From: Lachnospiraceae bacterium M18-1
Lineage (GTDB): Bacteria; Bacillota; Clostridia; Lachnospirales; Lachnospiraceae
Direction of reading: 5' to 3'
DNA length: 64,000 nucleotides
NCBI GenBank assembly: GCA_000403295.2
Contig: KE159605.1
Location: 1,397,409-1,461,408 of the forward strand
The notes below the pieces were generated by a model, which was not told the origin of the DNA, did not search any database, and was given only the letters and a program-made list of their open reading frames with translations. Shown here in pieces: positions 31,883-54,738 of this stretch; the first letter of the stretch is position 1, and every line of letters starts with the position of its first letter. A program made the position numbers and the translations under genes.

Positions 31883-31929
31883 TGTTTTCCTTTTGATCTC
31901 CCTAACCCGGATAAACCGGAAAAGTTTTT

Positions 31930-31977
31930 TTGCATTTCCTCCAAATTTCAAGTACAATAAAGAAAAATATTGGAGGA
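31930..31977 (+). promoter_or_regulatory. Internal promoter and SD-masking hairpin of the element
   Basis: TTGCAT (31930-31935), 17 bases, TACAAT (31953-31958). TCCTCCAA (31937-31944) is complementary to TTGGAGGA (31970-31977), which contains the ribosome binding site. RNA started at this promoter (near 31963) lacks the left arm, while read-through RNA contains both arms and would be poorly translated. Confidence 0.75.
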
Positions 31978-31984
31978 TGTGTTC

Positions 31985-33487
31985 ATGTTACTTACGGATA
32001 AATATGCTGACAAAATGAATGGTATCATCACTTGCTATGACCGTATGATCATCCAGGGCTATATCCCCGGATGGAGTTATGCGGAAGGTATGACCAGCTA
32101 TTTAAAAGCCAACAACATCCGTATTTTTGATTTTTCGACTTTCTCCCAGCCCCTTACGGAACAGGTTCGTGTAAATGCCCAGCGCATTGCAGATGAAAAC
32201 GGCATCCAGATTGAGTTCATCCGGAAACTCCGGGCGTTCCGAAAAGATGACCGCATCCAGGAGATCATTCAGAAAACCGGTAAGTCTGAGGGGCTGATTC
32301 ATATCTTTTCTGCCATGGAACAATGCAATACTTATAAGCCATGGCATGATAAAACAACCGGAAAAACATTCCTTAAGTTTGACCAAAGCAAATGTCTCCA
32401 TTATTATTTTTATTTTATAGATAAAGAACTCGGCTTGTGTTATCTCCGGGTTCCCACCTGGGCTCCCTTCCGACTGCAGTTCTACATGAACGGTCATAAT
32501 CTTCTGGCCCATAAGCTGCAAAAGAAAGGGATCACTTACCGTATGCATGATAACGCCTTCCTTGAAATCTCAGATGTCGAAACTGCCCAGAAACTATCTG
32601 ACAGAATCAACCCGGAAGGTCTCCATAAAATCCTGGATGTATTTGCAAAACGCTACTGTCCCATTGCGGAATCGCTCGGTCTCGGCTACACTTGGACAGT
32701 CCAACAGATTGAGTGTGCAACCGATATCATGTTCAAACAGGCCTGTGACCTGGAGCCCCTTTATGATGAGATCATCCGGACGGCAATCTTTACGGTAAAG
32801 CCGGATAACATCGCTGCATTCCTGGGACAGCGCATTACCTATAACTGTAAGAAAGAAGTCGGTACAAACTATAACCAGCGTATTCTCGGTACGAGAATCA
32901 AACACCATATGGGTGATGTATCAATTAAAATGTATGATAAATTTGGCTGTGTCTTACGGATAGAAAGTACTTGCAATGACATCGGGACTTTTCGTGTAAA
33001 ACGGAAAGTGGAACACAGGGACGGCAGTTCCACAGAACAAAAAGCGCCTTTGAAAAAAAGTATTTATAGCCTGTATCAGTTATTCACAATCATGAAAGCC
33101 GCCAACTACCGGTATCTGGAATTCGTATCATCCTTTGATGACCACAGCGGCGGAAAGAAGAATCTTACAAAAGCAACAGAGGCTGTTAAGGAGAAAGGCC
33201 GTTCCTACCGTGGGCTGAACTTCTTTTCCCCAAAAGATCTGTTGGTACTGGAAGTGATCAGCCGGGGCGAATACATGACTTTTGGAATGCAGGGAAAGGA
33301 TATCCGCCGCCATCTGGAGGATATCAGTCCGTCTGCCATGTCGAGAATTTTTAAGCGGCTCCGTCTCCATGGGATTATTGAACGGGTTCAAGGAACTTAT
33401 AAGTATTTTACAACAGCTTACGGCAAAGAGGTCATTGCGGCAGGATTAACCGTTAGAAACCTTGTGCTTATACCAGCATTGGCATAA
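31985..33487 (+). CDS. Putative novel transposase/recombinase of the 1,638-bp element
   Basis: 500 residues from ATG 31985 (MLLTDKYADKMNGIITCYDR), eight bases after GGAGG; the 15-base extension with TTG is unlikely. It is the only gene of a duplicated mobile unit, so a role in transposition is inferred. I see no DDE/IS4, DEDD/IS110, HUH-Y1, serine or tyrosine recombinase signature. Features: beta-strand-like IITCYDRMIIQGYIPGW and CLHYYFYFIDKELGLCYLRV with acidic residues, FGCVLRIESTCNDIGTFRVK in the middle, and a C-terminal winged-helix (FGMQGKDIRRHLEDISPSAM, SRIFKRLRLHGIIERVQGTY), which often earns such proteins a regulator label. The protein is identical to the copy at 52233-53735. Confidence 0.85.
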   Translation: MLLTDKYADKMNGIITCYDRMIIQGYIPGWSYAEGMTSYLKANNIRIFDFSTFSQPLTEQVRVNAQRIADENGIQIEFIRKLRAFRKDDRIQEIIQKTGKSEGLIHIFSAMEQCNTYKPWHDKTTGKTFLKFDQSKCLHYYFYFIDKELGLCYLRVPTWAPFRLQFYMNGHNLLAHKLQKKGITYRMHDNAFLEISDVETAQKLSDRINPEGLHKILDVFAKRYCPIAESLGLGYTWTVQQIECATDIMFKQACDLEPLYDEIIRTAIFTVKPDNIAAFLGQRITYNCKKEVGTNYNQRILGTRIKHHMGDVSIKMYDKFGCVLRIESTCNDIGTFRVKRKVEHRDGSSTEQKAPLKKSIYSLYQLFTIMKAANYRYLEFVSSFDDHSGGKKNLTKATEAVKEKGRSYRGLNFFSPKDLLVLEVISRGEYMTFGMQGKDIRRHLEDISPSAMSRIFKRLRLHGIIERVQGTYKYFTTAYGKEVIAAGLTVRNLVLIPALA

Positions 33488-33580
33488 GTGTTTTTCTTAT
33501 GCAGAAATTTTGCCATTTTGCGTCAAAAAATATTTATAAGTGGCCTAATGCAGCCGTACAGAGCCAGATCAAAACCCGGC

Positions 33581-51976: not shown

Positions 51977-52153
51977 TTAATTCGCATTTCCATTAACGCC
52001 TTCTACAAACCAATCGATCTTATTAATTTCAGCAGCTTCCGGGATTTCTCCTTTTTCAAACATCACTTCGCCAGCCTGGTTATAAATCGGACCTTCAAAG
52101 ACACTAAATTCATGCGTTTCCATTTTTTGTTTCATATCATTTATTGTACCTAA
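51977..52153 (-). pseudogene. 3' part of the interrupted BMP lipoprotein gene
   Basis: Carries the last 58 codons (GTINDMKQKMETHEFSVFEG to FVEGVNGNAN) of the BMP-family receptor. Its upstream end is the CCTAA copy bordering the 1,638-bp element. Confidence 0.88.
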
Positions 52154-53791
52154 CCCGGATAAACCGGAAAAGTTTTTTTGCATTTCCTCCAAATTTCAAG
52201 TACAATAAAGAAAAATATTGGAGGATGTGTTCATGTTACTTACGGATAAATATGCTGACAAAATGAATGGTATCATCACTTGCTATGACCGTATGATCAT
52301 CCAGGGCTATATCCCCGGATGGAGTTATGCGGAAGGTATGACCAGCTATTTAAAAGCCAACAACATCCGTATTTTTGATTTTTCGACTTTCTCCCAGCCC
52401 CTTACGGAACAGGTTCGTGTAAATGCCCAGCGCATTGCAGATGAAAACGGCATCCAGATTGAGTTCATCCGGAAACTCCGGGCGTTCCGAAAAGATGACC
52501 GCATCCAGGAGATCATTCAGAAAACCGGTAAGTCTGAGGGGCTGATTCATATCTTTTCTGCCATGGAACAATGCAATACTTATAAGCCATGGCATGATAA
52601 AACAACCGGAAAAACATTCCTTAAGTTTGACCAAAGCAAATGTCTCCATTATTATTTTTATTTTATAGATAAAGAACTCGGCTTGTGTTATCTCCGGGTT
52701 CCCACCTGGGCTCCCTTCCGACTGCAGTTCTACATGAACGGTCATAATCTTCTGGCCCATAAGCTGCAAAAGAAAGGGATCACTTACCGTATGCATGATA
52801 ACGCCTTCCTTGAAATCTCAGATGTCGAAACTGCCCAGAAACTATCTGACAGAATCAACCCGGAAGGTCTCCATAAAATCCTGGATGTATTTGCAAAACG
52901 CTACTGTCCCATTGCGGAATCGCTCGGTCTCGGCTACACTTGGACAGTCCAACAGATTGAGTGTGCAACCGATATCATGTTCAAACAGGCCTGTGACCTG
53001 GAGCCCCTTTATGATGAGATCATCCGGACGGCAATCTTTACGGTAAAGCCGGATAACATCGCTGCATTCCTGGGACAGCGCATTACCTATAACTGTAAGA
53101 AAGAAGTCGGTACAAACTATAACCAGCGTATTCTCGGTACGAGAATCAAACACCATATGGGTGATGTATCAATTAAAATGTATGATAAATTTGGCTGTGT
53201 CTTACGGATAGAAAGTACTTGCAATGACATCGGGACTTTTCGTGTAAAACGGAAAGTGGAACACAGGGACGGCAGTTCCACAGAACAAAAAGCGCCTTTG
53301 AAAAAAAGTATTTATAGCCTGTATCAGTTATTCACAATCATGAAAGCCGCCAACTACCGGTATCTGGAATTCGTATCATCCTTTGATGACCACAGCGGCG
53401 GAAAGAAGAATCTTACAAAAGCAACAGAGGCTGTTAAGGAGAAAGGCCGTTCCTACCGTGGGCTGAACTTCTTTTCCCCAAAAGATCTGTTGGTACTGGA
53501 AGTGATCAGCCGGGGCGAATACATGACTTTTGGAATGCAGGGAAAGGATATCCGCCGCCATCTGGAGGATATCAGTCCGTCTGCCATGTCGAGAATTTTT
53601 AAGCGGCTCCGTCTCCATGGGATTATTGAACGGGTTCAAGGAACTTATAAGTATTTTACAACAGCTTACGGCAAAGAGGTCATTGCGGCAGGATTAACCG
53701 TTAGAAACCTTGTGCTTATACCAGCATTGGCATAAGTGTTTTTCTTATGCAGAAATTTTGCCATTTTGCGTCAAAAAATATTTATAAGTGG
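52154..53791 (+). mobile_element. Unclassified insertion element, copy 2 (1,638 bp)
   Basis: Same boundaries, length and encoded protein as the copy at 31906-33543. It is flanked by CCTAA (52149-52153 and 53792-53796). It splits the BMP lipoprotein gene; removing the element and one CCTAA restores the reading frame as ...DDML-GTINDMK. The promoter (52178-52206) and SD-masking arms are conserved. Confidence 0.93.
52233..53735 (+). CDS. Putative novel transposase/recombinase, second copy
   Basis: Encodes the same 500 residues as 31985-33487, an identity that points to very recent movement. For domain description see that entry. Here the gene is antisense to the disrupted BMP gene, so transcription of the host operon would produce antisense RNA to it rather than read-through translation. 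Confidence 0.85.
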   Translation: MLLTDKYADKMNGIITCYDRMIIQGYIPGWSYAEGMTSYLKANNIRIFDFSTFSQPLTEQVRVNAQRIADENGIQIEFIRKLRAFRKDDRIQEIIQKTGKSEGLIHIFSAMEQCNTYKPWHDKTTGKTFLKFDQSKCLHYYFYFIDKELGLCYLRVPTWAPFRLQFYMNGHNLLAHKLQKKGITYRMHDNAFLEISDVETAQKLSDRINPEGLHKILDVFAKRYCPIAESLGLGYTWTVQQIECATDIMFKQACDLEPLYDEIIRTAIFTVKPDNIAAFLGQRITYNCKKEVGTNYNQRILGTRIKHHMGDVSIKMYDKFGCVLRIESTCNDIGTFRVKRKVEHRDGSSTEQKAPLKKSIYSLYQLFTIMKAANYRYLEFVSSFDDHSGGKKNLTKATEAVKEKGRSYRGLNFFSPKDLLVLEVISRGEYMTFGMQGKDIRRHLEDISPSAMSRIFKRLRLHGIIERVQGTYKYFTTAYGKEVIAAGLTVRNLVLIPALA

Positions 53792-53796
53792 CCTAA

Positions 53797-54738
53797 CATA
53801 TCATCTGTGACTAAATCCCCTGTTTCTGCAATTTTAGACAGCTTCGTATCAAATGAACCCTGCATAGTTACACATTCATATTGTCCGTCTATCGTGCGTC
53901 CTATTTCTTCAATCAGCCCATCCCAATCCGCACACATTGCACTTAACCAGACCTGCGGAGCAAGTTCCCTGGCATCTGCATTGCAGCCAAACACGGGAAT
54001 ATTCTCTTTTGCGCATAAATCAATGATCGGTTTGGGCGTATCCTGAAATTGGGAAATCACATCACATCCCGAAGTAATCAACTGTGTCGCAGATGTTGTC
54101 GCAAGCCCGCTGTCATCCCATGAGCCCGTAAATACGACATTTGTTTCTGCATCGCTATTCATTGACTGGGCTCCCAGTTCAAAAGAATTAATGGCAATCA
54201 TTACATCTGGGACAGGCATAGAGGCCACAAAACCTAGTTTGCCTGTTTTGCTGTTCATTCCTGCTAACATACCGCATAAATACCACGGATCCCACTGCTG
54301 TCCAACGGAAACAGAAAAATTGTCATGCGCCTGATCCGTATTTCCTAAATAATAAAATGCCACGTCTGCGTGCCGTTTTGCCACATTCATTGCCGCATCC
54401 AAAAATCCAAATTGTGTTGCAATGACGATCTTGCAGCCCTGATTAATTAATTCTTCAATAATACCCTCCGCATCCGAAGTGTCTGCAACACTTTCCTTTG
54501 TAATTACCTCAACACCCAATTTTTCTTTTAGTTCTTCCCCAAGCTGATAGCATCTGTAATTATATCCATAGTCGTCTTTCACTCCTCCCAGAAGTACGGC
54601 TATTTTTTTTGCCCCGGCGCCTGGTTTTTCATTCGTCTCCGAGCCTGCTTGTCCGGCATTCCCCGCACTGCCGCATCCGCCTAATAATACTGCCAAAGCA
54701 CCCAGCAGTGCCAGCACTTTCCTGATATTTTTTTTCAT
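53797..54738 (-). pseudogene. 5' part of the interrupted BMP-family (PnrA-like) lipoprotein gene
   Basis: Signal peptide with lipobox LLGGC (MKKNIRKVLALLGALAVLLG). The BMP domain follows: KKIAVLLGGVKDDYGYNYRC, IIEELINQGCKIVIATQFGF, VGQQWDPWYLCGMLAGMNSK, TGKLGFVASMPVPDVMIAIN. These receptors bind purine nucleosides. With the 3' part at 51977-52153 the original protein had about 372 residues. The present frame ends a few codons into the element (MLGHL), losing the C-terminal lobe closure. It overlaps the permease gene by four bases. Confidence 0.92.

Follow-up and report, generated by a model that had tools for sequence, protein, structure and literature searches.

The window analysed here, a 64,000-nucleotide stretch of Lachnospiraceae bacterium M18-1 (assembly GCA_000403295.2, contig KE159605.1, forward-strand positions 1,397,409 to 1,461,408), carries two copies of an element whose sole long gene encodes a 500-residue protein. 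We propose that this protein, a putative Rep-like tyrosine nuclease with a predicted TATA-binding-protein (TBP) fold, is probably the transposase of an autonomous one-gene insertion sequence (IS) that would move by single-strand cutting and joining at a short word. We also favor, with somewhat less assurance, the broader view that TBP-fold nucleases resembling the Rep_trans and Rep-Arvir replication initiators form an unrecognized transposase class and drive a widespread superfamily of bacterial insertion sequences via stem-loop ends. Comparative genomics shows mobility, precise junctions, one-word empty sites and stem covariation, and a structure model plus an alignment give the predicted fold and the conserved residues.

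An insertion sequence bounded by CCTAA

The window copies (31906-33543 and 52154-53791) match over 1,638 bases with 0 mismatches, as a first-pass annotation made from the sequence had reported for both the span and the encoded protein. Direct comparison bears out its further statements that CCTAA stands on the left and right of both copies and that their outer flanks are unrelated, and direct reading of the ends gave no inverted-repeat relation, again as annotated. The open reading frame starts at the ATG at 31985 and leaves 83 bp of non-coding space on the left and 57 bp on the right. The second copy interrupts a BMP-family gene. Rejoining that gene with one pentamer gives 372 aa, whereas zero pentamers give 317 aa and two give 316 aa, so the claim that one CCTAA restores the frame holds.

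A search for relatives of the window element returned 52 loci, the nearest (99% identical) in Dorea sp. 5-2. Genome G001 holds six full copies and G002 holds five plus fragments. The full copies align by blastn from CCTAA to CCTAA and diverge beyond. Among related Lachnospiraceae loci CCTAA stood at 36/37 of the left ends found (a count that includes both window copies) and at 33/38 of the right ends found (a count that excludes them), and the outer flanks of these loci are unrelated. The other right words were CATAA (two), CTTAA, CCTAT and CCTAC (one each). The scan demanded the adjoining end sequence plus a right word fitting C[CTA]TA[ATC], and these counts therefore leave out decayed or very different ends. 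Such frequencies are not due to chance and uphold the earlier suggestion that the shared pentamer reflects target specificity. The right word is the more variable (5/38 non-CCTAA versus 1/37 on the left), a weak hint that it may be target DNA.

CCTAA is specific to the window subfamily, and relatives use other words. A second subfamily in G002 (34-35% identity, four complete copies) has CATA at both ends, and single copies read by eye have CTAA or CCTAT, the latter at both ends of L094.

Empty sites were reconstructed by joining both-ended sites (the two window copies and 22 of the 28 loci tried) with zero, one or two CCTAA. One CCTAA gave by far the longest reading at W2 (315+57 residues), L006 (255+500), L012 (168+378), L016 (120+152) and L021 (417+362), and L039 read through with either zero (68+183) or one (110+183). 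A sixth site, L013, was left out of the tally, L004 has an N in its flank, and the remaining sites were taken as uninformative. Where readable, the target site carries one CCTAA, with the exception of L011 (see below). These sequence comparisons make a solid case for the window element as a multicopy mobile insertion sequence and as an IS family.

Homologues of the 500-residue protein number at least 7,963 (of 7,998 candidates scored) at E ≤ 0.001, and among the matches listed most are unnamed or carry 'hypothetical' or 'MarR family' labels. With fragments and weak matches counted, 13/398 genomes had a match in the phylum of G001, 14/246 in that of G009 and 14/398 in that of G008. Matches occurred in 11 of 72,556 plasmid records (Pseudomonadota and Actinomycetota) and in 0 of 50,697 phage records, and scanning viral contigs at the protein level added a single relative, L286. 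The hosts of the family are gut and environmental bacteria, with distant relatives reaching other phyla. Copy numbers in draft genomes are probably underestimates. Many draft contigs of G1059 and G1053 begin or end at element ends.

Junctions in genome G495 and the left-end stem-loop

The first-pass annotation had offered either a 5-base duplication or one CCTAA carried by the element, alternatives that the window copies cannot discriminate. The junction is fixed by a relative in G495, a 4.4-Mb single contig found via the phylum (presumably Planctomycetota) of G009, the genome with the Kuenenia-labelled locus L045. With 40 of 73 candidates scored, at least 21 matches in G495 span the full length and one copy is split; at least 18 more are short matches to the right end, 12 of them close to a left-end match. 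The junction set comprised 26 sites (20 full, 6 short) after L183, L187/L188 and L189, which lack the exact end string, were dropped. The base preceding the element is C at 26/26 sites, and the bases following it are A at 26/26 and then C at 25/26; the dropped L183 has AT on the right side. When the two flanks were joined, the resulting 14-mer was found unoccupied at offset 0 for 8/26 sites (6 distinct 14-mers in a 0.8-Mb sample), at offset 1 for 2/26, at offset 4 for 1/26 and for no site at the remaining ten offsets (range -6 to +6). Because the joined 14-mers peak at offset 0, insertion in G495 is C^AC, with neither duplication nor loss. The right end reads AGT^AC and the left end CTAGC in full copies but TTGGC in short copies; the left pentamer is therefore the element's and need not match the target. 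A carried CCTAA is favored over a 5-base duplication because the G495 junctions show no duplication.

Some G495 copies (e.g., L190-L195) are non-autonomous, about 175 bp long, with left pentamer TTGGC and the same C^AC target, and many G495 insertions lie in CACGGAA-type host repeats. L145, from the phylum of G008, has a right end as in G495 (GATAGTAGT^AC) and a left pentamer, ACAGC, that is repeated after the right end.

In 18/23 divergent loci the pentamer is followed directly by a strict GC-rich stem-loop upstream of the gene; these 18 are partly non-independent, since L092 equals L036 and two further pairs, L112/L287 and L055/L290, are closely similar. CTANS is the pentamer in 13 of the 18. 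AACCAAA comes next in 8/18, with variants elsewhere, and the window has AAAAG. The strict-stem scan misses L117 and L118, where direct reading gives CCTAAC-CCGA-ACGAG-TCGG, a compensated stem. No stem was recognized at that position in L054, L052 or L040 (L040 having a short upstream sequence), and several loci have further hairpins upstream of the gene. By the rule drawn from these relatives, the window element would be cut as C^CTAAC-CCGG, 5 nt before its stem.

Across 16 left ends the stem is paired in 96.5% of cells versus 14-41% for slid partners. Note that the ends were picked for having a stem, which inflates this percentage, and that the changes on both sides in four of the six stem pairs are the stronger point. 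The covariation score was reached by 0/500 shuffles, the number of pairs changed on both sides by 15/500 and that of additional pair types by 11/500. Judged by folding energy, without the covariation, the stems are modest: the window stem-loop has z -0.98 (32/200 shuffles fold as well or better), five other left stems have z -1.75 to -3.49 (the -1.75 from an inexact query sequence), and the right end gave weak folding z-scores only. In L117 and L118 the start codon is closely preceded by an inverted copy of the left-end sequence (CGTTCGGGTTAG), a possible autoregulatory site.

Predicted fold of the proposed transposase and its relation to known systems

In Pfam, NCBIfam and PHROGs the 500-residue protein matched no recombinase or transposase family to E = 10, in agreement with the first-pass annotation, which had seen no recombinase signature. 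Pfam had nothing but weak winged-helix matches, the best at E = 0.062; a single weak and unrelated match came from NCBIfam, and PHROGs yielded no match. Among PDB sequences every match listed was an antibody light chain, starting at E = 0.16. The structure model (predicted local distance difference test score 91.5) consists of a two-lobed TBP-like domain and a MarR-type winged helix; the C-terminal winged helix annotated earlier is real and occupies residues ~396-500. When the TBP-like domain model was compared with known structures, TBPs came first, followed by three Rep_trans initiators (4cij, 4cwc and 4cwe). The Rep_trans entries surfaced with the domain model only and were not among the matches listed for the whole protein. 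The BFVD protein A0A2N9QVX7 was among the top Foldseek hits (E = 3e-4), with poor global superposition. D19, E243, KxY317xK and RxE327 are kept in 114-115 of 115 relatives, and D19 falls in the first aligned pairs with 4cwc, 4cwe and 4cij. These residues may parallel the acidic triad and catalytic tyrosine of Rep_trans enzymes (motifs N', I, III and IV), although motif II and the E of YxKxxE were not recognized in the window protein.

Rep_trans proteins (PF02486; 4cij is RepSTK1, 4cwc RepDE and 4cwe from Staphylococcus aureus) have the TBP-like catalytic fold in common with the model of the window protein. The likeness extends to the succession of motifs, with an acidic residue on the first strand, then a second motif that is also acidic, then (R/K)xYxK and lastly RxE, as given in the sections consulted of two papers (PMC4797284, PMC5714925). 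The two differ in their DNA-binding part and lack profile similarity, and the known Rep_trans roles are plasmid and phage replication and conjugation, unlike the insertion sequence described here. In the portion consulted, a 2017 review assigns replication and conjugal transfer to Rep_trans enzymes, and these plus transposition to HUH enzymes (PMC5714925). The archaeal Rep-Arvir initiators (DUF7845, PF25227), in the part of their description consulted (PMC13107129), combine a TBP-like domain with a MarR-like winged helix and act at a hairpin DNA site, as here. A0A2N9QVX7 is in common to both via Foldseek. The present element differs in its bacterial host and in being an insertion sequence, not a replicon, and its protein has no PF25227 match to E = 10.

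IS200/IS605 elements (IS608, ISDra2), in the account consulted (PMC6006769), likewise have no terminal inverted repeats, a short fixed word and a stem-loop within a few nt of the left cut. They also make no target duplication, a likeness readable here in G495 only and ambiguous within CCTAA for the window copies. However, the window protein has 500 aa, a TBP-like model and no HUH Y1 match to E = 10, the target bases to the right of the cut are conserved in G495, and the pentamer before the stem is without an established guide role. IS91, ISCR and Helitrons similarly use a replication-initiator enzyme as transposase and lack inverted repeats and duplication (PMC5714925, same portion), but their enzymes are HUH two-tyrosine proteins, whereas the window protein has a TBP-like model with one conserved tyrosine motif and matched no such family. 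DDE insertion sequences differ from the window element, which lacks terminal inverted repeats, and from G495, which lacks target duplication; IS110/IS1111 and IS607 differ in that no DEDD or serine-recombinase family was found for the window protein.

Transposases are grouped by catalytic chemistry. As the window protein shows no tested defining feature of any compared transposase class, we rate the class as new by profile scans and predicted fold, a comparison that does not extend to ISfinder. Behind this verdict stand a confidently predicted model, a match at the level of fold and residues that are nearly invariant. The open-licence PMC literature (titles and abstract starts, with ISfinder and bioRxiv outside the scope) yielded no description of such a transposase.

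Proposed mechanism and alternatives

In the scheme that we propose, the chemistry, the strandedness, the circle and the choice between copy-out and cut-out are inferred. The winged helix would dock the enzyme at the left-end stem-loop, and Y317, with a metal held by D19, E243 and E327, would nick one strand at the junction, which lies 5 nt ahead of the stem and in the window is C^CTAA. A second nick would be made at the right end and the ends rejoined. The single strand or circle would then enter another C^CTAA, with the donor word restored and target bases not duplicated. The predicted metal-dependent tyrosine nuclease with its replication-initiator fold, the stem-loops at the left ends, the fixed word and the lack of duplication are consistent with such single-strand cleavage and joining and not with DDE cut-and-paste. 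If correct, a second fold, beside the unrelated HUH fold, would be common to rolling-circle replication, conjugation and transposition; the TATA-binding-protein fold would be linked to bacterial mobile elements; and a large set of mostly unnamed, 'hypothetical' or 'MarR family' proteins would gain a function.

A circle junction (right end GTGGC plus left end CTAACCCGG) had no match in 299 genomes at ≤1 mismatch, and in viral contigs it hit unrelated sequence twice (16-mers) and, at the edge of one contig, an ordinary left end. Its lack in assemblies says little. Strand bias was found in G495, where 19/22 copies agree by genome half (p = 0.0009) and 17/21 by local GC skew (p = 0.007), the target motif occurring 702 versus 750 times per strand; three of the 21 rows come from one 20-kb stretch. 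The short G495 copies gave 12-13/18, which is not significant. In the window subfamily, some of whose stretches overlap, 12/28 agree, matching the word's own skew (139 versus 243), and in the second subfamily 0/4.

Several results weigh against the proposal of a Rep-like single-strand transposase. Profile comparison of the window protein with Rep_trans (PF02486) gave no link, nor was there a Pfam match. The empty site of L011 reads longest with zero CCTAA (364+109), an exception to the one-word pattern. The strand-bias results are mixed, and replication-strand bias as a general mark of single-stranded DNA transposition is unsupported outside G495.

Within that proposal, the same enzyme might act by IS91-like replicative copy-out instead of through an IS608-like excised single-stranded DNA circle. 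Copy-out is a serious contender, although the less favored of the two: the copy number is high and the enzyme has replication initiators as its structural relatives, in the portions consulted of PMC4797284 and PMC13107129, but no one-ended or flank-capturing copies were established, and assembled genomes cannot separate the models.

A different chemistry, double-strand site-specific recombination at a short identical core (by a serine or tyrosine recombinase or an RNA-guided IS110-type enzyme, the circle joining CCTAA with CCTAA), would account for CCTAA at the left junction, right junction and target of the window subfamily, and for the matching end words of the second subfamily and L094. We consider it unlikely given G495, where a left CTAG (TTGG in short copies), a C^AC target and a right AGT^AC share no common core. 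Moreover, no serine, tyrosine or DEDD family was found for the protein, and the non-coding space is scant for a guide RNA. Less likely still is that the protein is cargo, a DNA-binding regulator or domesticated replication protein in an element moved in trans by another enzyme. The MarR-type winged helix and the repeated gene-less short derivatives in G495 would fit this, but such derivatives are equally expected if the protein itself acts in trans, its gene is the only long one in the element and co-occurs with the left stem-loop in 18/23 divergent loci, and the putative active site is near-invariant. Finally, a conventional DDE transposase with a 5-bp duplication and a chance preference for CCTAA, suggested by the 5-bp direct repeat bounding each window copy, is very improbable in view of the 26 G495 sites without duplication, the lack of terminal inverted repeats and of a DDE family, the TBP-like model and the need for the same duplicated word in nearly every copy.

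Table 1. Features of the two element copies, in window positions.
Feature	Position	Strand	Remarks
CCTAA left junction, copy 1; proposed cut C^CTAA between 31901/31902	31901..31905	+	Putative register, from relatives
Copy 1, proposed register, 1,643 bp	31902..33544	+	Putative register; the product is the same whichever register in the 5-bp repeat is chosen
Left-end stem-loop CCGG-ATAAA-CCGG, 5 nt past the proposed cut	31907..31919	+	Divergent relatives have a covarying counterpart
Transposase gene, copy 1, 500 aa, including stop	31985..33487	+	TBP-like domain aa 1-387; MarR-type winged helix aa ~396-500
D19 codon, predicted metal ligand	32039..32041	+	Conserved 115/115; probable parallel of RepDE D46 (PMC4797284, portion consulted)
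E243 codon (QxE)	32711..32713	+	Conserved 115/115; probable parallel of RepDE D142 (RxD; motif from PMC5714925, portion consulted)
Y317 codon, predicted catalytic tyrosine (KxYxK)	32933..32935	+	114/115; probable parallel of RepDE R189-x-Y191-x-K193 (PMC4797284, portion consulted)
E327 codon (RxE)	32963..32965	+	Conserved 115/115; probable parallel of RepDE E214
CCTAA right junction, copy 1	33544..33548	+	Last four bases would be target DNA if the proposed register holds
CCTAA left junction, copy 2	52149..52153	+	
Copy 2, identical, within BMP-family gene	52150..53792	+	
Transposase gene, copy 2, 500 aa	52233..53735	+	
CCTAA right junction, copy 2	53792..53796	+	
Interrupted BMP gene, 5' part	53797..54738	-	Gene name from the first-pass annotation
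Interrupted BMP gene, 3' part	51977..52148	-	

Several loci carry other elements. In L029 (3441-5821) another mobile element lies inside the transposase gene near GTATCAATC, with L030 and L041 occupied at about the same site; its genes resemble those of tyrosine recombinases. An intein or passenger at residue ~314 was ruled out, as the gap in L025 consists of N and L029 and L030 contain this other inserted element. A passenger gene in L021 was likewise ruled out: the extra gene (1178-2386) is an IS4-like transposase gene that sits inside the element, past its left end and ahead of its own gene, giving an element of ~3 kb. In L054 (2447-5867, a Mycobacterium riyadhense plasmid) a 'hypothetical protein' gene follows directly, with a stem-loop resembling a left end (CCTAG-CGACC-AAG-GGTCG) between the genes, possibly two elements in tandem. 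In the window itself, positions 33482-33502 form an inverted repeat (7 bp, T-rich loop) that overlaps the transposase stop codon and is either terminator-like or part of the right end.
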